From positions 32,064,651 through 32,128,650 of the forward strand of contig OX424558.1 in NCBI GenBank assembly GCA_949152475.1: a stretch of 64,000 nt of DNA. The letters run 5' to 3'. The stretch comes from Terebella lapidaria (lineage: Eukaryota; Annelida; Polychaeta; Terebellida; Terebellidae). The position numbers and the translations under genes were made by a program. How positions within the stretch are numbered: position 1 is the first letter of the stretch; each line of letters starts with the position of its first letter. Under the pieces are notes generated by a model. That model searched no databases and was not told the origin of the DNA. It worked only from the letters and a program-made list of their open reading frames with translations. Below, piece after piece: positions 3,164 through 64,000 of this stretch.

Positions 3164-3199
3164 TAGCAATGAGTCATCAAAATGTTATTTTTCAGGTCA

Positions 3200-4420
3200 A
3201 TCGATATGAATATCGAAGAGTGATTATAATGATGTGCCTAATTCGACAGTCGCTCTGAAGGACTACAGATTGACATGCCTGCTGCATGCCTGAGTAAATA
3301 GTGGATTGGTGAAGGTCACATGGCGGTAATGATTCAGTTTGTTTATTTTGTGTTAACCAGTTTTTAAAACACAAACAAGAATCGATAACAAGAGTGCAAT
3401 AATTCAACTATGTCAACGAAACCAGTCACATAATGCAAAAAAATGAGGATTCAAAACGATGTTCACATACTTGACCATAAATTTCATTTACATGATGTGA
3501 ATATACTTCTGCACTTACAAAAGAACGCAATACACAAACTAACGAAAATAACATGAACATACATTCAAAGTTGCTCACCGGAATAGTAAGCTATTTATGT
3601 GTACCCCTTTTTCGCCAATTACATATATTATTGTGTTTGAATCTACAGCATCCATCTCACACCAGTGACGAATGACTATAATTGGCACGAGCCCTTTGGA
3701 CCTTTTCAGAGGTAAATGGGTTGACGGTCATAAATCATCATTCATCAGTGGTCATCATCCATCCACCACGTGGTATTGAAATGATATATACATAAACGAC
3801 GTGCAACTTATGGAAACCATTATAACGAGGCTGTATATTGTTTCTGACCCAACGATTTGCTTTTCAGTTATGACGAGGAATTTTAAGTAACCTTTGTTAT
3901 ACAGTCACCAACATTTGGAGCCTTCACAAATCTCATGTAATTCCATTAGACAATGCAACCAATACTTCAATGACATCAATGATCGTACATGTATAACAGT
4001 TATGAATATAGTCAATGAATATATTTTGTTCAAGCCAATATGTTTTTTTCACATTTGAATTCCACAAGATCGAACGGACATATGAGGTTGATTATACATG
4101 GTTTGGCACACACACGCAGGAAGGACTGATAATGAGTAATGCTTTGGACGAATGATCATGACCTGACCCAACATGACCGCCATAAGGAAGTAAATATATA
4201 TGTTATCTAGTGGATATATTCCATTTGGTTGTTCGATCGAAGTGATGAATTTGCCGATGACTTTGTCAATTGTGATTACATGAGTGAGTGATGGATTGCT
4301 GAAGGTCACACAATAACGATATGATAACAGTAAAAACTTTTGCGTGCGTCAATTGTGTTTGTGTCCTTGGTACTGAACTAATTGACCAGGAAAAGCTAAC
4401 ATTGGTAATAACATAGCTAT
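3200..4420. repeat. Older diverged repeat segments inside the block
   Basis: Several blocks recur in diverged form elsewhere in the same large copy. The GATTGGTGAAGGTCACAT motif near 3302 recurs near 4291 and 10697. The CCAGTGACG...ATAATTGGCA segment near 3660 recurs near 8453. The sequence after ACAGATTGACA near 3262 recurs near 8010. They look like remnants of an old tandem duplication. I see no conserved reading frame in them. Confidence 0.5.
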
Positions 4421-4518
4421 CTGACTCATAATAACATTGTGTGATTAAAGTTTAAAATTGGACACATTTATTGTGGTTAGACTCGTTTTCGAAACCATCG
4501 ATGTCGGTAAATGAGGAT

Positions 4519-5252
4519 TTCACTTCTTTCCATTTCCCAGGATATTTTTTGGGCTTATGCATATTTTGAGTCCTATCAACTGATAGATATGTCAGTTGCA
4601 AAATAGTGACAATAGAACAGCACACATGGGTCTTGTCAGCTAAAATATCGAGGGATTTCCTCCTTCACTTCCTCGGTTCACTCGATGGCCTAGAATGCGG
4701 CCATGCGTGATATTTGCATATTCATGAGCTTTGTGAGTGTTGATGTCTCACATACGATGCCCATTCGTTTCGCGTTGTTGCTAGTTAAAAAATCGATTTC
4801 CGTGCATTTTCAGCAATGTCATGAAAAGATCAATATTCCGAAAAACTGATGTTTTATCCCAATATTCTATGTATGAATTATCGCATTTTACCAGGACGAT
4901 ACTGGAACGTAGGCGCATCCAGTGTGTTTATAATGACACGGTCCCAAACCATACTAAAATCGATTTCTTACCAGCAACAATGCGGAACGGCTGACCACCG
5001 TGGTTGAATGTGTGACGTGTCAGGTATTCCTCTCTCAAAGACCAAATTCAAGTGTAAACATAAACTTGCGCGCCTGTCAATCTTGATGTAAACACCACTT
5101 TTAGCCTTCTGTTTCGGGTGAAATAGCGCATAAATAGCCAGGTGTATGCGATTTTGGGAATCATGCTTAATTCGTTTTGATATAATTTTGTCAACTGAGC
5201 TGGTTTTTCAATTCGAACAAATATTAGTAACTAAGTGCAAATGCCTCTTTAA
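4519..5252 (+). mobile_element. TTAAAG-ended MITE, left end trimmed (family A)
   Basis: It matches 53563-54302 directly and 35940-36661 in inverse orientation. The right end reads ...TGCAAATGCCTCTTTAA, the complement of the left terminus TTAAAGYGGC seen in the other copies. The left terminus is missing here, removed by a deletion of about 30 bases relative to copy 2. No transposase-like frame is present, so this is a non-autonomous DNA transposon. The target duplication is not clear. Confidence 0.8.
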
Positions 5253-7060
5253 TTCAGATAGTATGACCAGATATATTGGATGTGTAGCAAACATGTGTGC
5301 GTTCGCATGACTTGGGTGGCTATTTACCTTCGAACGACATCAAAGTCAATGACCTTTCTCATGTATGTACAAAAAAAAGTACTTGATATTAAATCCCTTC
5401 CCCTTTCACCTTTATTACCACGCAAGATATGGTTATGCCATGTCCAACCAGAGATATTACCCATGAAAATGAAAGCCAACCAAATATAGTGATATTACTT
5501 TTAAAGACGGGGACTGTGATATCCGGAATAACGGGCATCTGGGACATAAAAAAAACCCTCAAGTGTCTTTGCTGACAGACAGGTTTTCGTTCCTGTCTGG
5601 GACTGCGGAAGTTCTTTCTGCGTAAAGAAATGCAATGCTATCGGTGGATGAGCAATAGCCTTTAATTACGTCGCATTTTGACGTACTGCTGAACAGAATT
5701 TGTATTAAAACACTATATGATCACACAGGAACTTCAATCTATAATATTAATTTTCCACAGGTTTTATTTTTTCAGCTTGGAATATTTGCAATGAAACGTG
5801 AATCTTCATCCATCGTAGTTGACATTGGGAAGATGAAATGAATGGATTTCTCCCTCAAACAGCAAGGGCACCGTACAGCAGAGCCCTGTTAATTCATATA
5901 GCCCTGTTTATGACCATGAATTTGTTTATGACAATAGCGGTGTTTATGTAGAGCCCATTTCCAGTTAATAATTTGCCTCTCTACAGAATATATTTTTACA
6001 CAACTTATATTATCAACTACCGATTTCCATTGGCAATGATTATTGTGAGATGAATGTAATTGCATACATATGATTTGATCCATATGGCCGAGTCATCCAA
6101 GCCCAGAAAACCTGCTATTAAGGGCCGGAAAACACAGATGGAGTTGGAGCGACAGTCACAGAAGCCACCATGGAAAAGTGGCCACATCAATGGATGCTTT
6201 ACATGCATACATGGGTTTCGTCCATCCATCCGTCTTTCAGCATTGGTTGCAATCCAAAGAAATCTTTCAGCATTATGACCAAACACAATAACTCATAAAA
6301 ACGCGTGGGTTCGTCGGCTGAATATTTTGGTTGCAACACCTGGAAAGTGGCAAAGTGTTGATGTTAGTTATGGCTAGCAATAATAATACACCACTCTCGG
6401 AACGATAATAAATGTATATGGTGGATAATAATTGCGTGTATATCTATCTATATTAGTCATTTCATTACATATTTAGTGGTTTCGTATATATTTCCAGTTA
6501 TTTGCACTGATTTTGCTACATAAGAATTAGTTCTATATTCTTATGATTAGTATATATTCCATGATCTATCTCGATTGAAAATCCAATTACTTGAGTTCTA
6601 CATTCTTCAAATAAGACAGTGGTATCAATATGTGTTCCACGATTATAGTTCTATGCGTGGGTTTCTTCAAAAGCATTTAGCACCATGTTTATTCCATCCG
6701 TGAGTCTCGTCAACAAAGAGCATATCACGTTGAGCCCAGAGTCCAGCGCCTTCAACGAGACATTGAAAACGAGACATAAAACTTGAAAATGAATGTTTTC
6801 TTGAAACTTTCTCGAAACTATTGAAGCTAGCATTCCATATCGCTAGCAAAATACATAGCTGTCAGTTGTAATCGCTATGGTACGTTGTAGCTCGTTGTTA
6901 TATGATACAAATGAACACTCAATATAGTGGATAAAGTCACTTCAATTCATTAGTTAGGATACATACGAAACATGTTATACAGTACATGAATTTGTTATTA
7001 CTTTACACACTTCAATGAAAGTACATTAACAAATAGCCACACAGTGTCGCACATACCAGA
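5253..7060. other. Block interior, no supported gene
   Basis: The most coding-like part is 6084-6278 on the plus strand, beginning MAESSKPRKP and rich in Lys, Arg and Gln. In the second copy (55065-55259) the changes I see alter amino acids (for example AIK to ASE and P to S), which argues against constraint. It could be a fragment of an exon. I do not recognise the protein. Confidence 0.4.
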
Positions 7061-7079
7061 TATCCTGACTTTCTTATCA

Positions 7080-7600
7080 AATATCACAGGGATATTTAAT
7101 AAAGAGGCCGACCATCCTGATATAACAAACTTGTGCTCGGCGCCTCCGGCAAAAGGAAGCTTTAGCCAGGTTCAAATGCCACTTTCATTGTGGAAGGTAT
7201 TAGATTTTTATCCAGGTCAGAAAAAATTGTTTATGCCTCACTGCATTTTTCATTAAAAATAAGCAAGCGCCAGACGCATGACATTTTTAATGAAACAGAG
7301 ATAGATATATCTATAAGAGGATTTGAGTTAGCCTTTTGTCACTGTTCCGTAATATGGTGATCTATAAGGAGCTCTGGAAGTGTGGAGTCTGCATTTTGGT
7401 GTCTCTAGCCATAACAAAATCTAACAGTTTTGTCCACAAATAATTGGACATAATATCAGTTCCAATACACAGTTTTATATTCTCGAAGTAATACTGATCC
7501 GGTAATTCTCGCATTGGAATATATTGTTTCTTTATCCATAAAATGGTTTTGTTCATAACATGGACACCGATTGAACTTAAAATCAGTCAGTGGATAGTAG
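7080..7600. repeat. Diverged relative of 1440-1960
   Basis: See the 1440-1960 entry. This member begins after GATATTTAATAAAG and runs past the GAGCTCTGGAAGTG block. Its duplicate in the second large copy is about 56050-56590. Confidence 0.6.
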
Positions 7601-8733
7601 TTCCTTTACCTATGCTATAGGAACTATATGGTACACTCATGGTTTTTTCTATTCTATACATACCTATGAGGTGGTTGTGTGTACTCGTCGCCAGTTTCTC
7701 GAGTCTCTTCGTGTATAAAGATAAATTTCGGTGCATAGAACTTAACTTGTCCACCAATACAGTTCCTGTTCATCAACACAGCAAATACAATTTAAATTTC
7801 AAATAATATGAATCGAGACTGACTCACCAGTATTTCGCATTATAGACACATTTCTCATCGCAAGGCTATTAATATCATTACACAGCTCCAACGACTCCAC
7901 TATACCAACGTATACCGTGCTTAGAATCAAGAAGTGTGTTCTTACTGATGGTCAATAGAGGAATGTTATTCATTGATAGTTTTCATCATATATTCGCTTT
8001 GGCAGCTTACAGATTGACAAATTACGTGCATGAACAAATATATGATAATTGATCGTCACACAAATAACGGTAGTAGTTTAGTTCTATTTGTTTTTACTGT
8101 ATCGATCTACCTTTCAAAATACGAAAAAGAATGGATAAGAAAGATGCATTATTCCAATCACAACAACGACAAGAATCACATGACGCACACTGGTAAGGAA
8201 TAAAAAACAACTATTTTATTGTGTTGAAATACTGTTAACTCTCTGTTCTTCTTCTTTGGATACTCATTGATATGCGTGCCAAGGTTGTGTTAGTGAAATA
8301 TTCATTTTACACCGAGATAAATAACATTTTGATATATTAGATATATTTATTTACTCACTGGAATAGCAGAAAACACCTGGGGTTAGTCAACAAAACTGAA
8401 GTTCACCAACTATATTTATTATTGTTTTTGTATCTGTTGTGCTCATTTTCCACCAGTGACGTATGACCACTGGTCATAATTGGCAACCTTATGACTCTTT
8501 TCAGGAACAAATGTGTTGAGGTAATAAATCATCTGTTATTAGTGTCTGAATGTGTCACATAGATTCGAAATGATCTTTGCGTAAACGACGTGCAACCCAG
8601 GGAAATAGATGATGCCATTTCTTGTCAGTGTACCATTTGATGAAGTAACTTGGTCATGCAATTGGGTTTAAATTTTAAAGTATTCTATACTGTGTGTCCA
8701 TTTCTGAATCCAATGTCGACACAATCCGGACAT

Positions 8734-8737
8734 TTAA
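8734..8737. other. Empty TTAA site of the MITE at 57737-58421
   Basis: Copy 1 reads CCGGACATTTAAAGAACTTC without interruption. Copy 2 has TTAA, 685 bp of transposon, then TTAA again at the same place. This is the unoccupied or precisely restored target. Confidence 0.9.
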
Positions 8738-8788
8738 AGAACTTCATTTAGCCCTTATATATATTGACGTATATGACCAGTGTTGTAT

Positions 8789-8878
8789 GACCATCCATAG
8801 CAGCCTGACCATCCATAGCAGCCTGACCATCCATAGCAGCCTGACCATCCATAGCAGCCTGACCATCCATAGCAGCCT
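8789..8878 (+). repeat. 18-bp minisatellite, five units
   Basis: Five perfect tandem units of GACCATCCATAGCAGCCT. The matching array in copy 2 (58477-58530) has three units. The frame reading THSSL-type repeats through it is a by-product of the 18-bp period. Confidence 0.97.
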
Positions 8879-9742
8879 TACTAGCTATTATACAAGCAGG
8901 TGACTTAATAGCACATACATGTGCTGAAACGAATTTCAATACCTCGTGCTACATTTTTCGATGTATGTTTAGTGATTTGATTCCATTTGTATTTTTGTCT
9001 TGCTGAATTGTCTATACGTTTTTGAAACCCTTCATACATCTCATATGATCTTGGTATATTATTTTGCTCACGTAAGGGTTCTGCGTACTGATGTACAAGT
9101 GAATTCGTCGTTATCAGCTCTACGTCTTACATGAATGGCAACCTGAACCTGGCTGGAATACAGAATGATAAAGATTAATCTGCTATGGATCTTTTTTTTT
9201 CAGAAAACCATTACTTTTACATTTGACTCATAGATACTATGTGGTTTGAATATATACAGCATAGATGTATGTATTAAACATGTGATTTATAGACATCCCG
9301 AAAAGGTGCAAACGAGTGAATAAAACATCCAAATAGCAGATATATGTTCAGAAGTATATAAGCAGTGCAATATGATCTCGAAGATGATTGTGAAAGCCAA
9401 ATCTTGTAGTCGGAATTCAGAACGATCCAACATGTGCTATGTACCGTTACAGTAGATTCATCATGATTTGGCACGCAAATAGAGGTAAAAGAACTAAACG
9501 TATTTTCGTAATAAATCGAAAGATTCCATGAGGTCTCTTCTCATTCAACTGATTACGAATTACCATGATATCGACTGCCATGCTGATGTCTATAAGTCAT
9601 CAACGTTGTCATGTATATGCTACATTTGGCAGTTCGGACAAGTCACTGAATGATGCCTGGAAAGGAAAGTATGTTTCACTTCGTCGATATCATTCGAGCT
9701 TATATTAGCATGAAAACACTCCGCTAGGCGGCGCGCGCAAGC

Positions 9743-10525
9743 AGTTTTTCGCGGGAGAGAAAAAAGTGAAGCTCGTTAAACCCGGTTTGGGTGGGGTCAT
9801 GTTACGGTCATTTTCGACCAATCAGAATGTCTTTTACATAGCATATTTGGTATGTAAGGAAAGGTTAGACATCGGCCTAGGTGACAAGAGCCCTCGTTTT
9901 GAGATCTGACCCAATTTTGGAGGTGAAAGTTCAGCTCAAAAAGTTTTTTCACTCCAAAAAACAAGTTAAAACTTTTTGTCGCCGATCATACATGATTTAA
10001 TTTGTGAATTGATGTTTTTTCTTCCATAATATAACGATATTTCAATCATAAACCCCTGTACTGCTTGGGAAATTGTTTCAAAATGAAGGGCCTGTCGTGT
10101 TTTATCTGCACGTCCGCCATCTGTTTAGTATTGGTTGGCACTCGAAGCCCCTATTATCGCCCATGTAAACAAGCTTGGCTATCGTTTTTTTTCGTTTTTT
10201 TTTTTATTGACCTTTGATAACATTACAGTAAAGGAGTACCTTGGACAAAATGCTACAATAAAACAATTTTTTGTGACTAGAATTTTGTCAGAAATGGCTT
10301 CAGTGATCATTTGTTCTACTTCTAATTGCCTGATGAGGGCAAATTTGACAACTTTGGGCACAATGATCACCACCAACGTCATATATTTTTAGTGTGTATG
10401 ATGTTGCAATGTGTAAAGTAATTAATATTGAATATTTTCAAGCCCTGAAATATGTATTATCACGTTTTGTTTGCATGTAAACAGCGAGCTTCACTTTTTT
10501 TGGACTTTTCGCTAATTTTTGTCTT
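9743..10525. mobile_element. Putative MITE with AAAAAAGTGAAGCTCG inverted ends
   Basis: The subterminal motif AAAAAAGTGAAGCTCG at 9760-9776 recurs inverted at 10493-10510, about 730 bases apart. Flanking TTTTCGCG- and AGCGAAAA-like sequence also pairs. No transposase frame is present. The same element is in copy 2 (59393-60207), where an internal poly-T part is replaced by a longer sequence. Exact ends and target duplication were not resolved. Confidence 0.6.
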
Positions 10526-11589
10526 CAGAAGGACCTAACGGTACCCCTCTTTGAAATGCTCTAGCACCTCTGCATCGATACCTACGGTCGATTTTGTTAC
10601 ATATTTGTTTTCCTGAAGCTTCAAGCTTTCTTTTGGTGTATTGTATGACCATGTAGACTCAATATTTCAGAAAGGTGTTGTCATGCTACTTATATGAACG
10701 TTTGATGGACTGGTGAAGGTCACATAACCATATGATAAGGATAACTGCTTTCACATGCGTCGATTTTATTTGCAACAATGGTATCGACGAAGTTTTATTC
10801 AGCCACTCGTCGCAACGAAACGGACCTGAATTAGATGTTTACAATTCTCTCAGTCTAGAAAACAAATTGATACATAACACGAATGCTACCGATGTACGTC
10901 AACACTGGTTAGAAACAAATTGGGTTCAGTGAACTTAGATTGTAAGGTAAATTTGTTTTGACAAGCTTCAGTCGTTGACCGTATAGGTTTGAAATGTCTA
11001 GAAACGGCATGCTATCCACAAAATCGCAAGTGGTTAAATATGTAAAAAAATTAGTTCAACACCCTCTTTTGGTTGAACCATACAAAACTGCCATCATCAT
11101 AGAGAATTTTTAATCCCAATGCATAGCATTCTATTTAGACATTCTATTTATGTTTTCTTCGTTTATTCATACATGTAAAGGTATGGAAAAATCTGTGACT
11201 CTCTGCCAATATCACTTCAACACTCCACTTGTTTCAGTACCCAAAGATTTTGCAGGCATTGCAGGCAACACAGCATTCTGTCAATATGCATGCCGTAGTT
11301 CTTACGATGCAGCATCCTTCCAAATGATGATATATAATTTTTGACATAACTGACGTCAACAGTGTTTCCAGAGGTGGATGTGTTGGCGGTTATACGTCAT
11401 AAGTCTCTCGAAAGTACCACTAGAATTGATATGATACATGTTGATACGACGTGTAACCCACCACCCTGTCAGTGATACAATTCATGGGCAATCCCTCATG
11501 TATAAGTGATTTTGTACAAGTGATTTTGTTCTATGAAACTACTTACCTAATAGTGGGCGTGATATGTAGGAGAGAACAATACATCCAAA

Positions 11590-12700
11590 AATAGGCGACT
11601 GCCATCACATCTAAATTTTCAGCTCAATGAGCAATATTCACGCAAGCATATCAGAGACGAAATCTTTTATGCTTGGCACATATCAGAGCATGATGCTCAC
11701 CATTTTCTGATATTCAGTCAAACATGTCTGCTAAGTATGCATTAAGTCGCAATATTCCAACGCACCATAAACTGGATGGAATCTCCAAATACTTTAACAA
11801 TGAGGCGACCCTGATGGTATTGAAGAACGGTCCCATTCGCTAAATAGTGGATATGCTCTGAAGTACAATTATCGGGATGAACCCCCAAAAAAATATTTTT
11901 GATCGCCATGAGGTTGGAAGCAATTATAATACCTAGGTTTGATTTCATGTGGACAATTCAGAATTTTTTTTGTACTCTAAAAATAAGTTTCAATATAGAG
12001 ATCAACACAAATAATTCAGGCAAGCAGGCTGTTTAGAGGTAATACAGTCGAAAATATCTTTGGCTGCATAACGTGGACAATTCAGAATTTTTTTTGTACT
12101 CTAAAAATAAGTTTCAATATAGAGATCAACACAAATAATTCAGGCAAGCAGGCTGTTTAGAGGTAATACAGTCGAAAATATCTTTGGCTGCATAACGTTA
12201 CCGGTTTGGTTTCGGAATTTTCATCACACACAAAAATGGTTTTTTTTAGTTACTCAATTACATCTTTGGTAATCATTTTAAGAGACATGACGGCACACTT
12301 TCTTGAGACGATCTTTTCTAGGATGAGTAATGTCCCATGAACCACATACTCGAAACGTGATGAACCAGTCTGTTCAACGGAATCAAGGCATGAGTGCAGC
12401 CATACTATTAATTTCCGTTGTAGAGTGCCGGAGAATCCAATCGATGAAAGTTTTATTGATAAGAAACGTGGAACGTGAATGAAGTAACTTGCTAACGCAA
12501 GGACATCATTCCAAATGTAGCGGTGATCCTGAAAATACTGTTTTCATGGTGATCGCAACTACCGACATCGTTAGGCAATTATCAATACCGTTAACTATTA
12601 AGTGTGGTAAGTATGATATATTTTGATTTTTATGTAGATGGAACAGCACTCTTTGATATTGCAAAGACTTCGCGTTGTCCCACGCTTAACAAAAAATAAA
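11590..12700. repeat. Repeat unit U0 of the diverged array
   Basis: Shares ordered blocks with units near 19.9-20.8, 23.0-24.1, 30.2-31.5 and 37.1-38.2 kb. The blocks are CTCAATGAGCA followed by GCAAGCAT; CTTRGCACATATCA with AAGATGCTCA; ATAGTGGATATG; a GATCGCCATGAGGTTGG block; GAGTAATGTCCC followed by GAACC; and AGTTTTATTGATAAGAAA. Diverged but collinear. I do not recognise the source sequence. Confidence 0.6.
11949..12196 (+). repeat. 124-bp perfect tandem duplication
   Basis: Units 11949-12072 and 12073-12196 both start GTGGACAATTCAG and end GGCTGCATAAC, and look identical. The second large copy has a single unit (about 61645-61768), so this duplication arose after the two copies separated. 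Confidence 0.95.
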
Positions 12701-13820
12701 CTTTGCATAATGCTGATGCTACTGTTATACATCCTGCCTAGATCCTGGATAACTTTGGACGTTCAGCAGATGGTGTACTTAAGGATTGACTGCGGGTAAC
12801 AAACCAAACACTGCAGTGAGCAGTTGTCCCATTCATTTATAATGTAAACATGAAGGTAACAAAATCAGCAGGACTACCCAACCTTTCTTCCCGAAACTTC
12901 ATTAACAGAGTTATGGATACCCATGGATGATGAACCGAGACATGGTTCTATAAAAACTATCACAGGATTTGTACAATTGATGATTACAGATATCACTTTT
13001 AAACGCGTCAACAAACAAGGCGTCGTACGTGTATCTTCAGCGTTACAAACAAGCTGTTTTTGGTATGTACGTTTTGTGGTGTGACCATCCAATAATAGAT
13101 GCATATACGACTTGAATTTCTGCGAGATGAATACAATAGGCGGATTTGGTGCACCCAAGCGCAACTCACCAGTGAGATTTACTAGCATTACTAATTGTCC
13201 GGAGTAAGAAATAATCCTGCCGTTGGGCATGTTTTGAGTGTACCTTGTCTTTTGAGAAAAAAGTCACAAAATGACATTTGAAAATGACAATTATCAGAGA
13301 ATTAATCGTATTTAGTCAAGAACCAAGTCTCGGTTGGTGATCTTTGATGGGTATAGGTCGCCACAGTAAATTCTGGTGCCAAATGGATGTTTGCAAATTC
13401 ATGATTTTGTTACCTTTATATTCACATTATGAGTGAATGGAGGACTGGCGCATTCCAGATTCGGGATTTTACATGCAGTTCGTCCTTAAGTAGTATTTGA
13501 CTCACCATGTGCTCAGTAAATTGAAGAGTGTAGTTTGTGACTCATACGTTCTCACTAATTTACTTTCTCTTCTATACAACTTCCCGCCTGCATCTGCAAA
13601 CGAACCATGGTACAGCCTCATTAACGCTCTGCATATAAACTGTACATTTGCCGGCACTGGCTATGCGCTGGGCAGGCACCTATAAGGCGCCCAGGTGCTA
13701 TAAAATCGAACGTGTCCCATCACGCTCCGACGTGCCTAAAATCGGAAATATTACACGATGTGTCATGTAAAAAAAATATACTTCGGCAGAGATGGTTTGC
13801 TATTGCTCAACTCAATGCCA
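12700..13820. other. No supported gene
   Basis: A 118-codon minus-strand frame (12874-13230) also stays open in copy 2 (62456-62812). The five differences I see between them are all amino-acid changes, so there is no sign of purifying selection. It has no recognisable domain. Confidence 0.5.
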
Positions 13821-13823
13821 ATT

Positions 13824-14377
13824 AACAAAAGGTAGTAAAACAGCAACAGAAGATGCTTCAGATTTGAAAAATCTAGCAATGCAGAAATGTCAACAAGCAA
13901 TATTGTAATCTGAGATGAAATGTATTTGGCAGTGATCACACTGTTGACAAAATGACATGCGAGGTAAGGATTTGATTGCCACTTAGTAGATCTGCATAAC
14001 ATTTTTGCTTTGGATCTGTACTAAGTAATGTGAAATGTAGAAAAATTACAGGACGGTCCGTGTGTCTGATTGATATCATTATTCATATCTTGCTTGGACT
14101 TATACTTGGATCTTGGGGATTCACCAGAGTCTCAGACTCCAGAAACAAATTGAGTAATAACTTGGCCAAGGTTGCAAATATACATTACAGTCTTCCGTGA
14201 CCTGTCAAAATCAGGCATGTTTTTTTACATGACTAAGAAACATCAGTGATGCTACTACAATTTTCAGGATGCGAAGTTTGGTAGATGTATACATTCATTA
14301 AAATTGCTATGTGAAGGATGAACTCACATCAATTATGTCTGTGTTATGGTGCTGTGTTAAGGATATCATGTGTCTCA
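13824..14377. repeat. Repeat unit U1, left part
   Basis: Starts at AAAGGTAGTAAAACAGCAACAG and aligns closely with 21633-22172 and with 63421-63964. A shorter diverged piece is at 40935-41130. The unit is interrupted at 14378 by a 4.7-kb insertion and resumes at 19083. Confidence 0.8.
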
Positions 14378-14441
14378 TAGTCCAGTTGCCAGACAACGAA
14401 CCTAGAAATTGTTGAAACAGCAAGGTTTTTGACATTAGAGC

Positions 14442-25060: not shown

Positions 25061-25668
25061 TGTTCTGAGTGGATATTGGCGCTTTATCTACCGCATTCTC
25101 TTCTTACACCTGCTCTACAAGACGTACATGGCAATGGTCAATATTAGTTCAAAACTTCTCTAGCCCACAGGAAGTTTACCGAGAAAATGCACATCGTTAA
25201 GCCATACAACTGCTTTTTGTTTCACTGATTTTGTCGCATCCACCTGCAGTTCAATGTCATCGAAAGATGTGCCAGATAGAGTCCGAAATGGCGTCCATAT
25301 GTACAGCTAGATATAATGTTAATTAATATATATCGAGCAAAATGTCCATAAGTGACATTTTTGTATCCCTCACAGGTAGTCTAAATTGTAATACTCGTGT
25401 GAAAAGAAACTGGAAAACCAACCCTCAACTTCCAGAACTGGATTTTTTCGCCGGAATCAGTCACAAGAGACGAAAATAATAAAAAAAACATTTGAAATAA
25501 TCCCATCCTGAATTATTTGTTAGTATTTTTGTGCAGCAGTTAATCTAACCATAAATTTCAGATGACACCCACGGATGGAAACCAGATGCAATGCCATGCC
25601 AATAGGTTATCTTATAAAATTGTTAATAGCCTAAAAAAAACTTGTAAAAAGTGGTGGTGTAATGTGAT
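25061..25668. other. Spacer with relic of a dispersed repeat
   Basis: No gene. Near 25585-25606 the text ATGCCATGCCAATAGGTTAT matches, inverted, a motif near 42512 next to the CGTCCGTC-rich stretch. It is probably a scrap of the same dispersed repeat family. Confidence 0.45.
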
Positions 25669-28600
25669 AGACGTGGAATCAATACCCAGTATTAAGTATT
25701 CCGAGCAAACAAAACAGGGTCCGTTATCCAATCTCATAGTCCGGGGACAGAAAGTCATATCAGGCATACGAAGTGAGAGAAAACAAAAATGACAGGGAAA
25801 CTCATGAACCTCCGTAAATGGCCATTAGGAGGTGAAATCAGGTGTTCCGGAAAGAGTGAGCATTTCCTGCCCCACTAGTGGCACCCGTCATGAATTCCCC
25901 AAAATTAACATGAAAATAGATCTAGTTGCATGGCAGACATGGATTTGCTGTATTTATCAACCAGATCATGATGACGTCCATATAATTTCTTAAACGCAGC
26001 TATAAGTCTTGGTAAAACATATCCTTGTCGTAGCAGTTTAGAGACTAGTTGGGCACTTCGATAGACAAAGTCCTCATATTTGCAACTAGCTCTGGAATAG
26101 CGTATAAGTTGAGAAACAAACACACCATATGCCGGTGACATAGGAATGTTGCTGCTTAGAAAAGGGAAATTGACTATGGAAAATTTGAAATCATCACGTT
26201 TGTTATATAATCTAGTTGACAGGTTAGAATCATTATCAATCTCCAACCTCAGGTCTAGATAGTTGGAAAAATTAGCGGATTCTGTAGTATCCTTAATTTC
26301 AAGTTCCTTAGGATATATGACATCCAAATAATCACCAAACTTGGGATTATTTAGCGACAATACATCATCTATGTATCGGAAAGTGAAATTAAAATTACAT
26401 GTTAGTTTCTTAGAACTTCCTCTTTGTAAATGTTGGATAAAATCTGATTCATATGAGTATAAAAACAGGTCTGCCAATAATGGTGCACAGTTTGTACCCA
26501 TGGGAATACCAATAGTTTGTTGAAATATTCGACCACCAAATTCCACAAAAATATTATCAATCAGAAAATTAACCATATTTACCACATCTATTTCAGTATA
26601 TTTGTATGGGGCATCAGAGTCGCCTTTAACAAAATAAGCGGTATTATATTTAACTACAATATAGTGGTACTGACGTTGTCCCTTTTTAGAGAAAAATGAA
26701 TTATTGAATAGTTTTTTAAGCTGAGATTTCAGTTCAGAATGAGGTATAGTTGTGTACAAAGTGGAGAAATCAAATGTTTTGATAGACGTTACTTTTGAAA
26801 GTGTGTGAGCAAGTAGACATTCCAATAAAGATTTGGAATTTTTTAATATCCACATTTGGTTTATACCACTTCTAGAATAGATGGTTTCAGAGTACTTTTG
26901 GAGACCCTGTTTAATTTTAGACAATATAATAGTTAATATTTTAGAAAGGGCTTTGGTAGAACATGATGCTGAATCTGAAATATATCTTTGTTTGTGTGGA
27001 TTTTTTTGCAACTTTGGGATCCAATATAAGTTCGGTAGATTAGAATCTTTACATGAGGTAGTAATACCAAACGAATGCAATACAGACAAATGATTTGATA
27101 AGATATCCTGTTTGGGCACGGTAATGGCTTGGTATGTACTATTGGAATTAGTATTGTTGGCAATACCCAGTTCGTCAAACAGGCACTGTATATAGTATGC
27201 TTTACAAACAAAAACAACTTTATTAGAAGCTTTATCTGCAGGGACAATGACGAACCTTTCTTGAAGTTTCAACAAACTATTAGTAACCACGGGATCATTG
27301 AAGACAGAGCTATATTTAGCACTAACTGACTTTGACAAAACATTAATGCGTTTGTTTACCAATGACCTAATCTGTTTGACCCATTCTGACAGAGAATCAG
27401 TTTCTGCCTTTTCTCGCTTTGTCCATTTTCTGGCATGCTCCTCAACTGCATCCATGATTAACTTAAAATTGTATCTCCATGAAAACGACGTGGGCTCTCT
27501 ATATTTGGGACCTTTGGACAAAATGTCTTTCAATGATTCATTCTCCACTATATTGAGGTCGCCTGAAATAACATGCCCAACTGGATCGTGTATGAACGGA
27601 GAGTTAATGCAAGTGCAGGAGGGTGGGTTATGTAAGAGATCATCAATATCCAAATCATTCAATGTTTGTTTGTAGTTGAAAATCTTGGAAGCAACAGATT
27701 TGGTATATGAGTAGGATAGAGATGGAGCGGCCGTGTCAATGAAGTATGATGGTACCTGGGACTGAACAGACTTATGATGTAATATATTACCGATGTTAAT
27801 TGCATCAATACCTTTATTGGCAAATTTTATCTTCAGAAAAGACCGTTTGGGTGGTATATATTCGGAATTCTGTGTTGGCTTATAAAGCCGATGATAAACA
27901 ATATCCATGATAATGGAATACAGACGAAATTCATAGCTATTGGTATTTCTGATATAGTGGGTAAGACATTGGTCCTCTAGTTCTTTAAGTTTAACATGAG
28001 GTATGGCAAATAATTTAGTGCGAACATAGTGCAGTCCAAGTGGTTGTTTCAATATTTCGAGTAGACCATCAAAGGAAATATTTTGAATAGATGGTCGATT
28101 ATAATGTCGTTGTCCATGGCTTCGTTTCCTATGTTTAAATGATGTAAATAAATTCATTACATTGACTGAACTGCATCCTGGGCTTGTCAGGTTTCCCACT
28201 GAACTGATATTATCGTTACAGCCATAAGGTGTAGCTGTGCCTAATTCACGTATCCAATGTTCTTCTCGTTTCCTGCGGGTGGGTGTACTTAATGAGGGAC
28301 TATTAGTATGGTGGTATATTTTTTCTATGACTCGAACTTTCATTGACAAAATAGAATGGTCATCCTGATTAAAATGTTGATAAAGTAGTTGATTAGAATT
28401 ATTATTGATGTTGGAACGATGACCATTAACTCTCTTGTTAAGCTGTCCTTTGGTTTCTCCAATATATACGAGACCACATATAGTGCATTCAATTCCATAT
28501 ACGATATTGCTGGTCTTGCAATTGATGTTTTCATAACTTTTACTAGTATATGTACGTTTGGTAAGTGAACTTGTGAACTGTGAGTCTGTAATTAATATAT

Positions 28601-29016
28601 CACAAGTTTTGCAGTTTTTAGCTCTACATTTATTAATACTATATTGACAATCATCACCCTCTGCTTTCATTATATCTGGAAGTTTGATTTTGCAATCTCT
28701 AATATTGATAAAATTACCCGAGTTGTTGTACCATAGGGAACGATCAGAAGAGACTACGTATGATGTTTTCATAATATCTGATATGATGAGTCTAGGGGCA
28801 CCTTCTGAGGAAGCTGTGACCGTGCCCTTGGACACAACTTTTTGACACCTTTTTATACTGGGCGCCGTGTCAACCAGTTTGTTTCCGTTGTCTTTGTACT
28901 GCATAGTTATTTCAAATACTAGGTTAAACCTAACTATACTAGGTTTACTGAGCTGATGGTGCCCGCGGGGACAAATAATTATCCACCAGCAAAGACACCG
29001 ACTCAGTTATAGTAAT
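25669..29016 (-). mobile_element. Full-length Naiad-type Penelope-like element, copy A
   Basis: Read on the minus strand: a short 5' leader (29016-28905, 112 bp), one uninterrupted 999-codon frame, and a 3' tail of about 236 bp ending ...ATTCCACGTCT. The 3' terminus is fixed by three copies (25669, 29017, 48471) that share sequence up to AGACGTGGAATC and differ beyond it. The 5' end abuts the 3' end of truncated copy B, giving the partial head-to-tail tandem typical of Penelope-like elements. It looks structurally whole. Confidence 0.88.
25905..28904 (-). CDS. Penelope-like reverse transcriptase with N-terminal GIY-YIG
   Basis: Single 999-residue protein that would copy element RNA into target DNA. 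A Cys-rich stretch lies at 86-101. A GIY-YIG endonuclease follows: YGIEC at 136-140, YIG at 147-149, Arg158 in NKRVNGH, and a Glu in RKREEHWIREL (211-221). A CxxC (140, 143) lies between the two hallmark motifs and His177/His183 follow, a possible zinc site. The CTC pair (430-432) with GHVISGDL (443-450) precedes the RT. RT blocks: VPADKAS 554-560, LYWIPKLQKNP 626-636, FDFSTLYTTIPH 711-722, GIPMGTNCAPLLAD 799-812, YIDD 844-847, YLDLRLE 882-888. Canonical Penelope elements carry GIY-YIG C-terminally. N-terminal placement plus CxC is the hallmark of the Naiad/Chlamys clade. Start: first in-frame Met. No required catalytic motif is missing. Confidence 0.93.
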   Translation of the reverse strand: MQYKDNGNKLVDTAPSIKRCQKVVSKGTVTASSEGAPRLIISDIMKTSYVVSSDRSLWYNNSGNFINIRDCKIKLPDIMKAEGDDCQYSINKCRAKNCKTCDILITDSQFTSSLTKRTYTSKSYENINCKTSNIVYGIECTICGLVYIGETKGQLNKRVNGHRSNINNNSNQLLYQHFNQDDHSILSMKVRVIEKIYHHTNSPSLSTPTRRKREEHWIRELGTATPYGCNDNISSVGNLTSPGCSSVNVMNLFTSFKHRKRSHGQRHYNRPSIQNISFDGLLEILKQPLGLHYVRTKLFAIPHVKLKELEDQCLTHYIRNTNSYEFRLYSIIMDIVYHRLYKPTQNSEYIPPKRSFLKIKFANKGIDAINIGNILHHKSVQSQVPSYFIDTAAPSLSYSYTKSVASKIFNYKQTLNDLDIDDLLHNPPSCTCINSPFIHDPVGHVISGDLNIVENESLKDILSKGPKYREPTSFSWRYNFKLIMDAVEEHARKWTKREKAETDSLSEWVKQIRSLVNKRINVLSKSVSAKYSSVFNDPVVTNSLLKLQERFVIVPADKASNKVVFVCKAYYIQCLFDELGIANNTNSNSTYQAITVPKQDILSNHLSVLHSFGITTSCKDSNLPNLYWIPKLQKNPHKQRYISDSASCSTKALSKILTIILSKIKQGLQKYSETIYSRSGINQMWILKNSKSLLECLLAHTLSKVTSIKTFDFSTLYTTIPHSELKSQLKKLFNNSFFSKKGQRQYHYIVVKYNTAYFVKGDSDAPYKYTEIDVVNMVNFLIDNIFVEFGGRIFQQTIGIPMGTNCAPLLADLFLYSYESDFIQHLQRGSSKKLTCNFNFTFRYIDDVLSLNNPKFGDYLDVIYPKELEIKDTTESANFSNYLDLRLEIDNDSNLSTRLYNKRDDFKFSIVNFPFLSSNIPMSPAYGVFVSQLIRYSRASCKYEDFVYRSAQLVSKLLRQGYVLPRLIAAFKKLYGRHHDLVDKYSKSMSAMQLDLFSC

Positions 29017-29969
29017 AGACGTGGAATCAATACCCAGTATTAAGTATTCCGAGCAAACAAAACAGGGTCCGTTATCCAATCTCATAGTCCGGGGACAGAA
29101 AGTCATATCAGGCATACGAAGTGAGAGAAAACAAAAATGACAGGGAAACTCATGAACCCCCGTAAATGGCCATTAGGAGGTGAAATCAGGTGTTCCGGAA
29201 AGAGTGAGCATTTCCTGCCCCACTAGTGGCACCCGTCATGAATTCCCCAAAATTAACATGAAAATAGATCTAGTTGCATGGCAGACATGGATTTGCTGTA
29301 TTTATCAACCAGATCATGATGACGTCCATAGAATTTCTTAAACGCAGCTATAAGTCTTGGTAAAACATATCCTTGTCGTAGCAGTTTAGAGACTAGCTGG
29401 GCACTTCGATAGACAAAGTCCTCATATTTGCAACTAGCTCTGGAATAGCGTATAAGTTGAGGAACAAACACACCATATGCCGGTGACATAGGAATGTTGC
29501 TGCTTAGAAAAGGGAAATTGACTATGGAAAAATTGAAATCATCACGTTTGTCATATAATCTAGTTGACAGGTTAGAATCATTATCAATCTCCAACCTCAG
29601 GTCTAGATAGTTGGAAAAATTAGCGGATTCTGTAGTATCCTTAATTTCAAGTTCCTTAGGATATATGACATCCAAATAATCACCAAACTTGGGATTATTT
29701 AGCGACAATACATCATCTATGTATCGGAAAGTGAAATTAAAATTACATGTTAGTTTCTTAGAACTTCCTCTTTGTAAATGTTGGATAAAATCTGATTCAT
29801 ATGAGTATAAAAACAGGTCTGCCAATAATGGTGCACAGTTTGTACCCATGGGAATACCAATAGTTTGTTGAAATATTCGACCACCAAATTCCACAAAAAT
29901 ATTATCAATCAGAAAATTAACCATATTTACCACATCTATTTCAGTATATTTGTATGGGGCATCAGAGTC
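29017..29969 (-). mobile_element. Penelope-like element copy B, 5'-truncated, tandem
   Basis: Same orientation as copy A and directly upstream of it. It keeps the complete 3' tail and the last part of the RT frame, and stops matching copy A at about 29969 (GGGGCATCAGAGTC, near residue 764). Beyond that the sequence belongs to array unit U3. The tail in front of A is what the Penelope literature calls a pseudo-LTR arrangement. It is not an LTR retrotransposon. Confidence 0.9.
29253..29933 (-). pseudogene. RT C-terminal fragment of copy B
   Basis: 226 codons equivalent to roughly residues 774-999 of copy A. They include GIPMGTNCAPLLAD, YIDD and YLDLRLE but lack GIY-YIG, the CxC region and the first RT blocks. 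Reading is uninterrupted. Differences from A are few: Asp for Asn901, Asn for Lys907, Pro for Ser931 and Phe for Leu974. The truncation removes the FDFSTLY aspartate, so it cannot be an active polymerase. Confidence 0.92.
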
Positions 29970-31560
29970 TCGTGAATGCTACTATTTTTTTCCTAGTCAT
30001 GTAACAATCTCTAAAACACTGACAAGATATATCGGTGGGTGGGTGATTAGGTTATAATCTTGGGGTATTGCTCAACTGGAGTCTGAGACTGGAAAATAAT
30101 AAAGACAGTTAATTACACAATGGAGTCGTCAGCCGATTGGTGGCAATGGCGATAATATACTGGACATGCTACCTTAACACAGTGTTAGTTAGTTCTTCCG
30201 TTCAATTGTATTTCACCTGACTGTTCGTAACTGAGTGACCGATTGATTTCCCATCATCTCTAATTTTTACAGCTCAATGAGCAGTATTCGAGAAAGCATG
30301 TAATTCCGAGGACGAAAGAAATATTTTAGGCTTAGCACATATCATGGCAAGATGCTCACCGCAGTAGATTATTCGTCAAACTCGTGGAATAACCTTTGGC
30401 ATTCAGGTGTTATTATCCATCTTACTGGAGTAAATCTTGATATTGTTTGATACCTGGATGACCCTGGCAGTATCAACCCATGATCTGCGAGACATATAGC
30501 GGATATGTGCGTTGAAGTACAACTGACAGGATGAGGCAATGCTTGATTTTTCATCGCCATAAGACTGAACAAAATTCTACAACTTTAGGATCGATTGCAT
30601 GTGGACGTCCTTATAAAAATAGTATTTTGTGTGTAGATAAGTTAAAATCCGGAATGGGTTTTATCACTGAGTGGTGAACAAAAATATTAGTAACTCAAGT
30701 TTCTCTATCTGACTGCATACAGGATATTGATTTTCAAGATAAAATTTAATCAAGCACTCCATAACTATTCTTATTCGATTTGGTTCCACAATTTACAGTA
30801 CAAAAAACGTGAGTTATTACATTAACTCAGCAGTCTAGTATAATTGTCGTTGGTATCAATTGTTGATCGCCATGAGATTGATTGCATGTGGACGCCAATA
30901 AAATTAGTATTTTCATGCATATAAATTCAAATCCAAAAGGGATTTTATTACTGAGTGGTGAACAGAAATACTAGTGACTCAAGTTCCTCTATCTGACTGC
31001 ATACCGGATATTGATTTTCGAGATGACACTTAATCAAGCACTCCATAATTATGCCTAATTGGTTCCACAATTTACAGTACAAATAACGTGAGTTATCACA
31101 TTACTTCAGCAGTCCAGCATTGTCGTCGGTACTCCTTATCAGAGAAATGAGGGTACGCGACACAATTTTCTGCGAGGATCGTTTCTGGAATGAGTAATAT
31201 CCCTTGAACCCACGAACCCCGAGCTCTCGAAACCTGATGAATCATTTTGTACACCAAAGGACGCAGGGTTTGAGTGTTGCAGTACTGCCCGTTAATTTCC
31301 GTCGTTGAATTCAATCGATGCAAGTTTTTTTGATAAGAAAGGGGGATATCAATGACGATATCTGACTAAAAGGGATATTTAATTGATGGGATATTCTTTT
31401 CCATTGTAAATTGTCGTAGACTTTAATCGATGCAATTTTATTGATAATAAAATCATTCCAAACCCATCGTTGATGACTCCCTAAAGATGCGCATTCCGAG
31501 CCAAACTAGGGGATAGATCATTTGCTAGTACATGTATGTGAAACTAAAGTGATTTATATA
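29970..31560. repeat. Repeat unit U3 of the diverged array
   Basis: Contains the blocks ACAATCTCTAAAACACTGACAAGATA, GTCTGAGACTGG, the NEAVSRL-like DNA (shifted in frame by one base), CTCAATGAGCAGTATTC, GGATGACCCTGGCAG, CCCTTGAACCCACGAACC and GATGACTCCCTAAAGATGCG, collinear with U2. More diverged than the U1/U2 pair. Confidence 0.7.
30552..31137 (+). repeat. Imperfect tandem repeat, about 275-312 bp
   Basis: Two units (30552-30863, 30864-31137) share ATCGCCATRAGA, GATTGCATGTGGACG, TTATYACTGAGTGGTGAACA, CTCTATCTGACTGCATAC and ACGTGAGTTATYACATTA. This is a duplication internal to U3. A single related copy is in U4 near 37430-37700. Confidence 0.85.
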
Positions 31561-38002: not shown

Positions 38003-39170
38003 TAATATTTTAGGTATGCAATCTTCTGTCGACAAAATGAAACAGTTATCAATGCTACCATAACCCCCGGTTTGTCAAGTTTGACATACGTGATTATTAA
38101 ATATATTGTGTTTAGGTTTGAATGACACAATCTATATCACCAACAATTTTTTATATTGCAAATACTTCATCGCATTGTCCCATGCACGATCTTTGAGACA
38201 CGAGTATGCTATTTACATAATATTGTTAATTTTTAGAATTTTGCCTTATGTTCTATAGATGATTTACATACTTACAAGTAATTCATTTGAAGATATATAG
38301 GATATCCGATTTTAATCATCATTAAATGCTATATTCGTGATACAACAAGCTTGAGAATATTATTAAGCCGAAAATATTATATGATGTTAATATATTGAAG
38401 AACACTAATGTATACATCAGTATCTATATGTTTTGTCCCTAACGTGAGTGTTTTGGGACATAATTCCAAACAAAGTCACCAACAGGCCCTTCGTTCTTCA
38501 TTCGAAATAATATGCAATTATTATATATGACGTGGAAATGATCAAGTATTATGACATATTTTACAGCGTGAATGAAGTTAAATGTTTAATATTTTAGGTA
38601 TGCAATCTTCTGTCGACAAAATAAAACAGTTATCAATGCTATCATAACCCCCGGTTTGTCAAGTTTGACATACGTGATTATTAAATATATTGTGTTTAGG
38701 TGTGAATGACACAATCTATATCACCAACAATTTTTTATATTGCAAATACTTCATCGCATTGTCCCATGCACGATCTTTGAGACACGAGTATGCTATTTAC
38801 ATAATATTGTTAATTTTTAGAATTTTGCCTTATGTTCTATAGATGATTTACATACTTACAAGTAATTCATTTGAAGATATATAGGATATCCGATTTTAAT
38901 CATCATTAAATGCTATATTCGTGATACAACAAGCTTGGGAATATTATTAAGCCGAAAATATTATATGATGTTAATATATTGAAGAACACTAATGTATACA
39001 TCAGTATCTATATGTTTTGTCCCTAACGTGAGTGTTTTGGGACATAATTCCAAACAAAGTCACCAACAGGCCCTCCGTTCTTCATTCGAAATAATATGCA
39101 ATTATTATCTATGATGTGGAAATGATCAAGTATTATGACATATTTTACAGGGTGAATGAAGTTGAATGTT
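38003..39170 (+). repeat. 584-bp tandem duplication
   Basis: Units 38003-38586 and 38587-39170 are nearly identical from TAATATTTTAGGTATGC to GTGAATGAAGTTRAATGTT. Only a handful of substitutions separate them, so the duplication is recent compared with the unit array. Confidence 0.95.
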
Positions 39171-46688: not shown

Positions 46689-47557
46689 CTAGATACAAGC
46701 CCAATCCAGGCTGGTATGGATTGCACCAAGTCCTAACACCTCTCTGGAAACTCCATTCCGAAAACCATGGATGCGGTCCTCTAGTTCTGCTAGGTTGGTC
46801 TTTAAAGACCTTGACCTTTGGGACATTTGAGCAATATCTGCCCACAAGTTCTGGATGGGGCTCAGATCCGGACTTTGTGATGGCCATTTTAGCACTGATT
46901 CTGTTGGACTCTTTCCCTTCGGCGACGAGGCGAGAGCGATGGCAGGGTGTGCCAACATCCTGCATGGTGTTTTGGTCCCTATACCGGAGCACGTGCGCTG
47001 ATGACACCAGGCTGTCACCCAGAATGCCCCTGGTTATTCTGTGTCCCTCTGATTGTGTGGGACAGACTGACCTCTCTGAATAGCAGGCATCCCATGACCC
47101 CACACTAAGACACCACCACCAAACTTTTCTGTCGGCGGTGATGTTCTCTGGAAAATATTCTTCATCAGCTCTGTTGTAGACATGGACCCTATTGATGTAG
47201 TAAAGGTTGAATTTAGAATCGCCCATGAATAACGCCACTGACAAAACCAGACCTCGTAATGATGACAGAAGTCAAGGCAAGACGTGCTTTGGAGCCTTGG
47301 AGTTGCTTTGGAGTGAGTTTAGGCTTCCATCTGGCCATTATTCGAACCGGCTGCTTTCAGCGGTTGGCGAACTATTGTTCGAGAAGCATGAACACCATGG
47401 TAGCTCCAAAGTGCACTGAACTCAAGAACAGTGCCATGTCTGTTCTGCTCACAGTGACGTACCAGGAGCCGGCCATCCCTGGCAGTGGGTACAGCAGGTT
47501 TCGCGATCTTGGGCGGTCTCCAACATCTCCCGCTCTTACGTATCAGGCTATAGCAAG
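46689..47557 (-). pseudogene. Tc1 transposase, catalytic part (broken)
   Basis: The peptide WPSQSPDLSPIQNLW is the Tc1/mariner DDE signature, usually WPSQSPDLNPIENLW. Here the catalytic Glu of the usual IENLW is Gln. Upstream, GDSKFNL and a QDVGTPCHRSRLVAE-like stretch correspond to the first and second catalytic Asp regions (usual forms SDESKFNL and QDGAPCHRSR), but they fall in different frames with several stops between. The gene is dead. Confidence 0.88.
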
Positions 47558-48471
47558 GTAAATATGGTTAATTTTCTGATTGATAATATTTTTGTGGAAT
47601 TTGGTGGTCGAATATTTCAACAAACTATTGGTATTCCCATGGGTACAAACTGTGCACCATTATTGGCAGACCTGTTTTTATACTCATATGAATCAGATTT
47701 TATCCAACATTTACAAAGAGGAGGTTCTAAGAAACTAACATGTAATTTTAATTTCACTTTCCGATACATAGATGATGTATTGTCGCTAAATAATCCCAAG
47801 TTTGGTGATTATTTGGATGTCATATATCCTAAGGAACTTGAAATTAAGGATACTACAGAATCCGCTAATTTTTCCAACTATCTAGACCTGAGGTTGGAGA
47901 TTGATAATGATTCTAACCTGTCAACTAGATTATATGACAAACGTGATGATTTCAATTTTTCCATAGTCAATTTCCCTTTTCTAAGCAGCAACATTCCTAT
48001 GTCACCGGCATATGGTGTGTTTGTTTCTCAACTTATACGCTATTCCAGAGCTAGTTGCAAATATGAGGACTTTGTCTATCGAAGTGCCCAGCTAGTCTCT
48101 AAACTGCTACGACAAGGATATGTTTTACCAAGACTTATCGCTGCGTTTAAGAAATTCTATGGACGTCATCATGATCTGGTTGATAAATACAGCAAATCCA
48201 TGTCTGCCATGCAACTAGATCTGTTTTCATGTTAATTTTGGGGAATTCATGACGGGTGCCACTAGTGGGGCAGGAAATGCTCACTCTTTCCGGAACACCT
48301 GATTTCACCTCCTGATGGCCATTTACGGGGGTTCATGAGTTTCCCTGTCATTTTTGTTTTCTCTCACTTTGTATGCCTGATATGACTTTCTGTCCCCGGA
48401 CTATGAGATTGGATAACGGACCCTGTTTTGTTTGCTCGGAATACTTGATACTGGGTATTGATTCCACGTCT
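47558..48471 (+). mobile_element. Penelope-like element copy C, 5'-truncated
   Basis: Opposite orientation to A and B. Begins at AATATGGTTAATTTTC (near residue 775 of A) and ends exactly at the shared 3' terminus ATTCCACGTCT. It interrupts the Tc1 transposase between its DNA-binding and catalytic parts. No clear target duplication was seen. Confidence 0.92.
47564..48235 (+). pseudogene. RT C-terminal fragment of copy C
   Basis: 223 codons, uninterrupted, equivalent to the last part of the 999-residue RT, with YIDD present. Shares Asp901, Asn907 and Phe974 with copy B against copy A, and has a private Gly in RGGSKK. It lacks the endonuclease and most of the RT. Confidence 0.92.
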
Positions 48472-48580
48472 TTCACTCTCTTGCAGGAGTACCCATCTTC
48501 GGCTGCTATAGCCCTCCGGCTCTTCCTGTGCTTTTGAAGTCCGCACATCTGGATCGCTCAAATCCGTTCAGCTCAGCCAT
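48472..48580 (-). pseudogene. Tc1 transposase, N-terminal HTH part (broken)
   Basis: Starts MAELNGFERSRC at 48580 and, in the next frame, gives GLQKHRKSRRAIAAEDGYS, which fits the Tc1 N-terminal helix-turn-helix (usual RAIAAEVGCS-like). The change of frame and the Penelope insertion directly after it show it is inactive. Confidence 0.75.
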
Positions 48581-53562: not shown

Positions 53563-54302
53563 TTAAAGTGGCTCTTTCACTTCTTCCCACTTCCCAGAAT
53601 ATTTTTTGGGCCTATGCATATTTTGAGTCCTATCAACTGATAGATATGTCAGTTGCAAAATAGTGACAATAGAACAATGGGTCTTGTCAGCTAAAATATC
53701 GAGGGATTTCCTCGGTCACTTCCTCGGTTCACATGATGGCCTAGAATGCGGCCATGCGTGATATTTGCATATTCACGAGCTTGGGGAGTGTTGATGTCTC
53801 ACATACGATGCCTATTCGTTTCGCGTTGTTGCTAGTTAAAAAAACGATTTCCGCTCATTTTCAGCAATGTCATGAAAAGATCAATATTCCGAAAAACTGG
53901 TGTTTTATCGCAATATTCTATGTATGAGTTATCGCATTTTACCAGGACAATAATGGAACGTAGGCGCATCCAGTGTGTTTATAATGACACGGACCCAAAC
54001 CATACTAAAATCAATTTCTCACCAGCAACAATGCGGAACGGCTGACCACCGTGGTTGAATGTGTGACATGTCATGTATTCCTCTCTCAAAGACCAAATTC
54101 AAATGTAAACATAAACTTGCGCGCCTGTCATTCTTGATGTAAACACCACTTTTAGCCTTCTGTTTCGGGTGAAATAGCGCATAAATAGCCAGGTTTATGC
54201 GATTTTGGGGATCATGCTTAATTGGTTTGATATAATTTTGTCAACTGAGCTGGTTTTTCAATTCGAACAAATATTAGTAACTAAGTGCAAATGCCGCTTT
54301 AA
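53563..54302 (+). mobile_element. Family A MITE in copy 2
   Basis: Ends TTAAAGTGGCTCTTTCAC and the complement of ...GCAAATGCCGCTTTAA. Complete at both ends, unlike its counterpart at 4519-5252. Confidence 0.88.
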
Positions 54303-58421: not shown

Positions 58422-58476
58422 TTAAAGAACTTCATTTAGCCCTTATATATATTGACGTATATGACCAGTGTTGTAT

Positions 58477-63964: not shown

Positions 63965-64000
63965 GTCTCATAGTCCAGTTGCCAGACAACGAACCTAGAA

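Follow-up and report, generated by a model that had tools for sequence, protein, structure and literature searches.

A Naiad-type Penelope-like element of the annelid Terebella lapidaria and a conserved RNA hairpin that recurs in short non-coding tandem repeats

The stretch of DNA analysed here, hereafter the window, comprises 64,000 nucleotides (nt) of the polychaete Terebella lapidaria (assembly GCA_949152475.1, contig OX424558.1, positions 32,064,651 to 32,128,650 of the forward strand) and holds copies of a Penelope-like element (PLE) of the Naiad type. The protein of this element is of a known kind, while what looks new is a conserved RNA hairpin lying outside its open reading frame (ORF), here called E2, which is common to two Naiad families and to a short non-coding tandem repeat of the same genome. 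The features of the window are the following (aa, amino acids; RT, reverse transcriptase; UTR, untranslated region; LTR, long terminal repeat):

25664-29011, minus strand: complete element unit of 3348 bp, with its 3′ end at 25664
25905-28904, minus strand: main ORF, GIY-YIG nuclease, CxC linker and RT, 999 aa, ATG to TAA
28236-28505, minus strand: GIY-YIG nuclease match, aa 134-223, with C140, C143, H162 and H177 conserved
27609-27617, minus strand: CxC motif, reading CTC, aa 430-432
26634-26711, minus strand: 26-aa insertion between RT motifs A and B, aa 732-757, at the IFD position as judged from sequence alignment only
26355-27005, minus strand: RT match, aa 634-850, with YIDD at aa 844-847 (26364-26375)
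25664-25904, minus strand: 3′ UTR, 241 nt, reaching to the 3′ end
28940-29015, minus strand: match of the E2 model, with the outer helix P1 formed by 29007-29002 and 28952-28947
29012-29969, minus strand: 5′-truncated head-to-tail copy (pseudo-LTR), 958 bp, joined to the complete unit at 29012/29011
29253-29933, minus strand: ORF fragment (C-terminal part) of the truncated copy, offset from the end of the main ORF by exactly one period of 3348 bp
47557-48476, plus strand: solo 5′-truncated copy of the same family in opposite orientation, with the same 3′ end and an ORF fragment at 47564-48235

The initial annotation had described the open frame of 999 codons, which is real, and had omitted its strand; on the plus strand, the frame printed for these positions is full of stops. 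The motifs are found at the residues it had named (YGI at 136, YIG at 147-149, CxxC at 140-143, the CxC/GHVISGDL region with GHVISGDL at 443, and YIDD), and Pfam profiles match both domains: GIY-YIG with E=6e-5, passing the family cut-off, and RVT_1 with E=1.5e-5, yet with a bit score under the family cut-off. The permuted order of an N-terminal GIY-YIG, a CxC linker and a C-terminal RT, which it had matched to the Naiad/Chlamys clade, was also confirmed, and the ORF is the protein of a multi-copy Naiad-type PLE. Members of the Naiad clade reportedly combine the nuclease-CxC-RT order, a C/C/H/H nuclease, an IFD, pseudo-LTRs, the lack of a hammerhead and copy numbers in the thousands, and are said to favour microsatellites as insertion sites, a tendency that does not strictly define the clade. 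The element described here resembles them in the domain order, in its C/C/H/H nuclease and in carrying an insertion at the IFD position, as well as in its pseudo-LTRs, in the lack of a hammerhead motif in its unit and in its thousands of copies.

The same genome holds a second Naiad family (L039), the protein of which is 60% identical over a frame of 1038 codons between stops and reads CSC at the CxC position, together with further diverged copies. It also holds canonical PLEs, with the RT first and the nuclease last, as in Penelope/Poseidon elements with their C-terminal nuclease. Between these same-genome loci and the element in the window the domains are homologous, with identities of 21-28% for the RT and 27-36% for the nuclease, although their order is reversed. 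Of the residues proposed for a putative zinc site in the nuclease, the CxxC cysteines C140 and C143 are conserved, while the H-x5-H histidines (H177/H183) are probably the wrong pair, with H162 and H177 being the ones that accompany C140 and C143 in 9/9 alignment rows (2 Naiad and 7 canonical PLE nucleases). Since the canonical PLEs of the same genome have these residues too, the C/C/H/H arrangement is, as far as the alignment tells, not peculiar to Naiads. The 26-aa insertion, on the other hand, is present in three Naiad rows representing two families and absent from six canonical PLE rows. Single-sequence structure models had a mean pLDDT of 38 for the nuclease and 35 for the RT and were left unused. 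No relative of the protein with a solved structure was found by single-sequence search, and the profile search gave one irrelevant match (E 0.0073); among viral and prokaryote contigs no relatives were confirmed.

In regard to the distribution of this family (family 1), the genome of 761.6 Mb in 438 contigs was searched, and from 10,452 first-look candidates all 46 of the 46 scored protein-search matches proved to be near-full copies with 96-100% amino acid identity, five of them with an internal stop. The frame is thus not there by chance, and at least 46 near-full copies exist. The 34 nt at the 3′ terminus of family 1 occur at no fewer than 5,658 places with up to 2 mismatches (the reversed pattern at 0), and the copies examined have one common 3′ end. 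As these ends stand against 72 head-to-tail junctions and 104 unit starts, most family-1 copies are 5′-truncated. A seamless junction lies directly upstream in 36 of the 46 near-full copies and a unit start only in another 6, so that the start of E2 is found upstream of at least 42/46 near-full ORFs; the remaining 4 showed neither (4 of the 104 unit starts being unlisted), and two of them begin at unit positions 161 and 177. Among the 100 unit starts listed, 30 belong to five loci, each of which has six repeats of 76 bp. These loci, one of which is L067, lie about 8-9 kb apart at G000:C2:52243139-52279247, and in each of them the six repeats contain E2 and stand upstream of a stop-free ORF. 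A subfamily with a rearranged 3′ UTR was also observed (L046, L047, L063 and L064), having duplications of unit positions 3224-3314 and 3106-3345 and 5′ truncations that differ.

Family 1 is young. Among five copies compared closely, three encode an identical protein with 3-4 synonymous differences per pair. The suggestion that the copy is recent or active fits the family better than the copy in the window, which, judging by its sequence, is probably no source element: it departs from the protein shared by the three copies at 22 aa, with 22 non-synonymous changes versus 11 or 10 synonymous ones, and at those 22 sites the second family sides with the three copies 12 times, with the window once and with neither 9 times. 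The nearest relative of the window copy, L002, lies 55.7 kb off and matches window positions 25133-30404, flanks included, except for an insertion at the ORF end; because the flanks are the same over the stretch compared, L002 is a duplicated locus and no second insertion. Insertion sites were compared at 18 places (20 loci, of which 6 were dropped with their 5′ boundary out of reach, and 4 added sites). At these, target-site duplication did not rise above background, the longest flank match having a mean of 6.2 versus 6.0 for mismatched flanks, and by eye none of the 18 lies directly in a microsatellite, unlike what the insertion bias of Naiads would suggest.

E2 spans about 61 nt directly past the site of the 3′ end or junction. 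Where copies stand head to tail, 107-110 nt separate the 3′ end from the ORF downstream, and E2 ends about 42 nt before that ORF; in family 2 the layout is as in family 1, although the letters are different. The 226-nt region folds modestly better than its shuffles (z −1.7, with 11/200 shuffles at least as good), and the case for E2 therefore rests on its conservation. In an alignment of 20 sequences (3 from family 1, 1 from family 2 and 16 from the short element described below), 98.7% of 378 cells are paired and 4 pairs are changed on both sides, and 0/500 shuffles match the pairing, the double changes or the covariation score, while slid structures give 34-48% paired. The unpaired letters are strongly conserved as well. 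A covariance model of E2, run on the window and 59 loci, gave 14 hits, all of them in Naiad or short-repeat sequence, the one in L034 being weak at 29 bits, and no hits in 31 other GIY-YIG loci, taken as about 1.5 kb on either side of each nuclease and not as whole elements. In L082, a relative with 78-87% identity over longer stretches, and in L083, L084 and L086, no E2 hit was obtained in the stretches examined. The E2 pattern was also met in one viral contig, to which the model gave 14.7 bits, and in 19 stretches of prokaryote genomes (pattern only), which were taken as chance matches.

The 3′-end sequences of family 1, family 2 and the short element differ from each other, and each ends a few nt before P1. 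Sixty ends were sampled, 20 per family, from the first 100 places listed of 5,658 for family 1, 268 for family 2 and 8,269 for the short element, where inner array units were avoided. Counted as nt past a point 7 nt before P1, some of which are chance matches, the ends of family 1 run 0 in 11, 1 in 8 and 2 in 1, those of family 2 run 0 in 5, 1 in 6, 2 in 4, 3 in 4 and 5 in 1, and those of the short element run 0 in 7, 1 in 5, 2 in 3, 3 in 2 and 5 in 1, its other 2 places being tandem junctions. Hence 56/58 ends lie 4-7 nt and 2/58 lie 2 nt before P1. Ends located independently of the anchor used in this sampling agree, in family 1 (the window copy, the solo copy and L003-L006), in family 2 (L039, L040 and L043) and in the short element (L071, L074, L077, L079, L080 and L081); in the window copy, the 3′ end lies 4 nt before the place where P1 would begin. 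It could be argued that E2 serves transcription, as a promoter or start element, and that its place at the boundary of the unit has nothing to do with reverse transcription, as it lies in the 5′ UTR close to the ORF and recurs, again upstream of the ORF, in the 76-bp repeats of the five loci mentioned above. However, its conservation tracks RNA base pairing, which makes a promoter less likely, and the short spacing to the 3′ end is nearly equal in all three families even though their end sequences differ, so we consider this explanation very unlikely.

The short element, of which the window contains nothing but E2 itself, is a tandem repeat with a unit of about 363 bp. A pattern for the E2 core that excludes family 1 occurs at 4,149 places in the genome, many of them in arrays of such units, and the 3′-end motif of the short element occurs at 8,269 places with up to 2 mismatches. 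In a tandem of one 363-bp unit, the longest stop-free run in six frames does not exceed 77 codons. When compared with the family-1 unit by BLAST at E 0.01, the short element matches solely over 63 nt (nt 7-69), which correspond to the hairpin. One could still suppose that the element in the window is an ordinary Naiad copy, its protein being of a known kind, and that the short repeats owe their E2 to chance, carrying with it a piece of an old Naiad 5′ UTR. That thousands of short repeats keep E2 with its pairing conserved, while the rest of their sequence has no BLAST match to the Naiad unit, speaks against this, and such an origin appears highly improbable. At one locus (L066, G000:C5:28368934) the E2 of a unit start follows an end like that of the 363-bp element and not the Naiad 3′ sequence, which is possibly a template switch at the E2 boundary. 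At another (L070 and L071, G000:C1:13159500-13165800), a short-element array was seen by eye within a Gypsy-like pol, with scrambled short repeats at the 5′ end of the array.

Canonical PLE loci of the same genome differ in this respect also, as they bear hammerhead-like cores after the ORF (e.g., L014, L032 and L037) and E2 was not found in them; these cores come from a loose sense-strand motif search that also gives some chance-looking matches. In the family-1 unit the same search found no hammerhead; in family 2 it gave one match, within the ORF, and none in the examined UTRs, and of the short element it matched 0/12 loci. Rfam listed no hammerhead in L070, L074, L079 and L080 or in the Naiad loci, a silence that proves little for the Naiads because Rfam listed none in the canonical loci either. 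The strongest of the rival explanations builds on this pattern: E2 would be a self-cleaving ribozyme not described before, which stands in for the hammerhead and cuts tandem transcripts just upstream of P1, giving unit-length RNAs, perhaps circles, with reverse transcription proceeding from the cut end. The conserved unpaired letters of E2 would fit a ribozyme, as would the clustering of 3′ ends just upstream of E2, in a place comparable to that of the hammerhead, and its occurrence in a family-1 unit and in short repeats that lack the hammerhead-like motifs of canonical loci. Furthermore, the short units in tandem are reminiscent of the retrozymes of animals, non-coding tandem units of 150-450 bp that have hammerheads and a tandem arrangement in common with PLEs (PMC7229834). 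The 363-bp units are likewise short, non-coding, tandem and linked to a PLE by a structured RNA, and differ from retrozymes as described there in carrying E2, with no hammerhead found. Against a ribozyme stand the silence of Rfam, which at E values up to 5 listed no family over E2 (though it also listed no hammerhead in the canonical loci), the lack of apparent pairing across the putative cut, and the variation of the ends by a few nt. Insertion by PAc, a canonical PLE of Anolis, moreover proceeded in vitro with no need of the ribozyme (PMC11167929). On balance, we regard the ribozyme as unlikely, and the bolder version, in which E2 would represent a new self-cleaving class in the place of the hammerhead and define hammerhead-free retrozymes (the 363-bp arrays) spread by the Naiad protein, as quite unlikely.

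A search for known RNA families also returned a Pistol ribozyme at 28815-28878 (19.3 bits against a cut-off of 34.5, E=3.3), inside the start of the ORF, which was treated as chance; family-2 DNA no longer aligns in that region, its match beginning at unit position 396. An ALIL hit was far under the cut-off.

The explanation that we favour, and hold to be reasonably probable, is that E2 is recognised by the protein, sets the start of reverse transcription on the template and itself remains uncopied, and that the short repeats are moved in trans. According to this model, element RNA would arise from head-to-tail copies, and the protein would bind E2, which lies just 3′ of a fixed internal site. 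Reverse transcription would start a few nt (mostly 4-7) upstream of P1 and proceed toward the 5′ end of the RNA, crossing the ORF and entering the preceding copy. E2 would be required on the 3′ side of the start, and since it would not be copied, a new copy could be transmitted further only if it contained an internal junction: single copies would be dead on arrival, while copies with a pseudo-LTR would keep E2 and alone could move again. The Naiad protein would likewise mobilise the E2-bearing elements of about 363 bp. Such a mechanism would account for the pseudo-LTRs, for there being 72 junctions to 5,658 ends and for the presence of E2 in short elements as well. The model starts from what was observed, namely the architecture, the 3′ ends that copies have in common, the short spacing found in all three families, the conserved pairing, the shared 63 nt and the tandem structure, to which it would add binding by the protein, a start of reverse transcription at the site and mobilisation in trans.

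A parallel is offered by the PAc protein. The purified protein starts reverse transcription within the RNA at +111-118 and requires RNA to +172 (PMC11167929), which, from the numbers given, amounts to about 54-61 nt of RNA past the start, and E2 ends about 68 nt past the 3′-end site. By this analogy we propose that E2 may be the Naiad counterpart of the PAc recognition RNA. Canonical elements such as PAc also have an internal common 3′ end and tandem copies, with the difference that the RT start of PAc lies inside the ORF and the 3′ end of the Naiad element lies upstream of it.

Several observations weigh against the proposed role of E2. All of the compensatory pairs (4/4) trace back to one sequence, the sole family-2 row; 102/500 shuffles reached the alignment's number of further pair types, and sliding the structure by −1 still yields 2 double-changed pairs. 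The short element and family 2 have no BLAST match at E 0.01, their likeness resting on the motif and the model. The anchor for the 60 ends stops 7 nt before P1, so that shorter ends would escape sampling, and E2 is known from one genome. A literature search, the scope of which did not extend to Craig et al. 2021, returned no description of E2 or of short elements bearing it.

A conserved hairpin a few nt from the copy end, common to both autonomous Naiad families and to a partner that has no gene, bears on why PLEs sit in tandem and on how their RT chooses its start, and would let both questions be tested by means of a single short RNA. It further points to what might mobilise a class of satellite-like repeats, and to a protein-RNA pair involving a nuclease-RT enzyme, the RT of PLEs being held to be related to telomerase (PMC11167929).

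A stretch past the stop codon, at 25837-25886 on the minus strand and again at 29185-29234, resembles the post-stop stretch of L039, L040 and L043 (GGGTG...ACACCTGAT), and this likeness between two Naiad families may, from the sequence, possibly reflect another RNA element. Elsewhere in the window, positions 3164-14407 and 52275-64000 are long direct repeats with 89-99% identity, about 49 kb apart, which together with the duplicate locus L002 make up nested segmental duplications. Both halves of the duplication carry an 18-bp tandem repeat, TGACCATCCATAGCAGCC, in 5 copies at 8788-8878 and in 3 copies at 58476-58530. A 584-bp unit occurs twice head to tail at 38003-39170 with 98.5% identity, and the E2 core motif is absent there. 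Outside the window, the mitochondrial COX1 of the genome reads through when translated with the invertebrate code, the code chosen for it, and the genome was accordingly taken to be that of an invertebrate; a molluscan haemocyanin domain was looked for and not found, in a search that gave no hit in any control genome. Finally, a second COX1-like sequence, in two pieces and with a 703-aa frame containing in-frame TGA codons, was observed at G000:C417:44633-46450.

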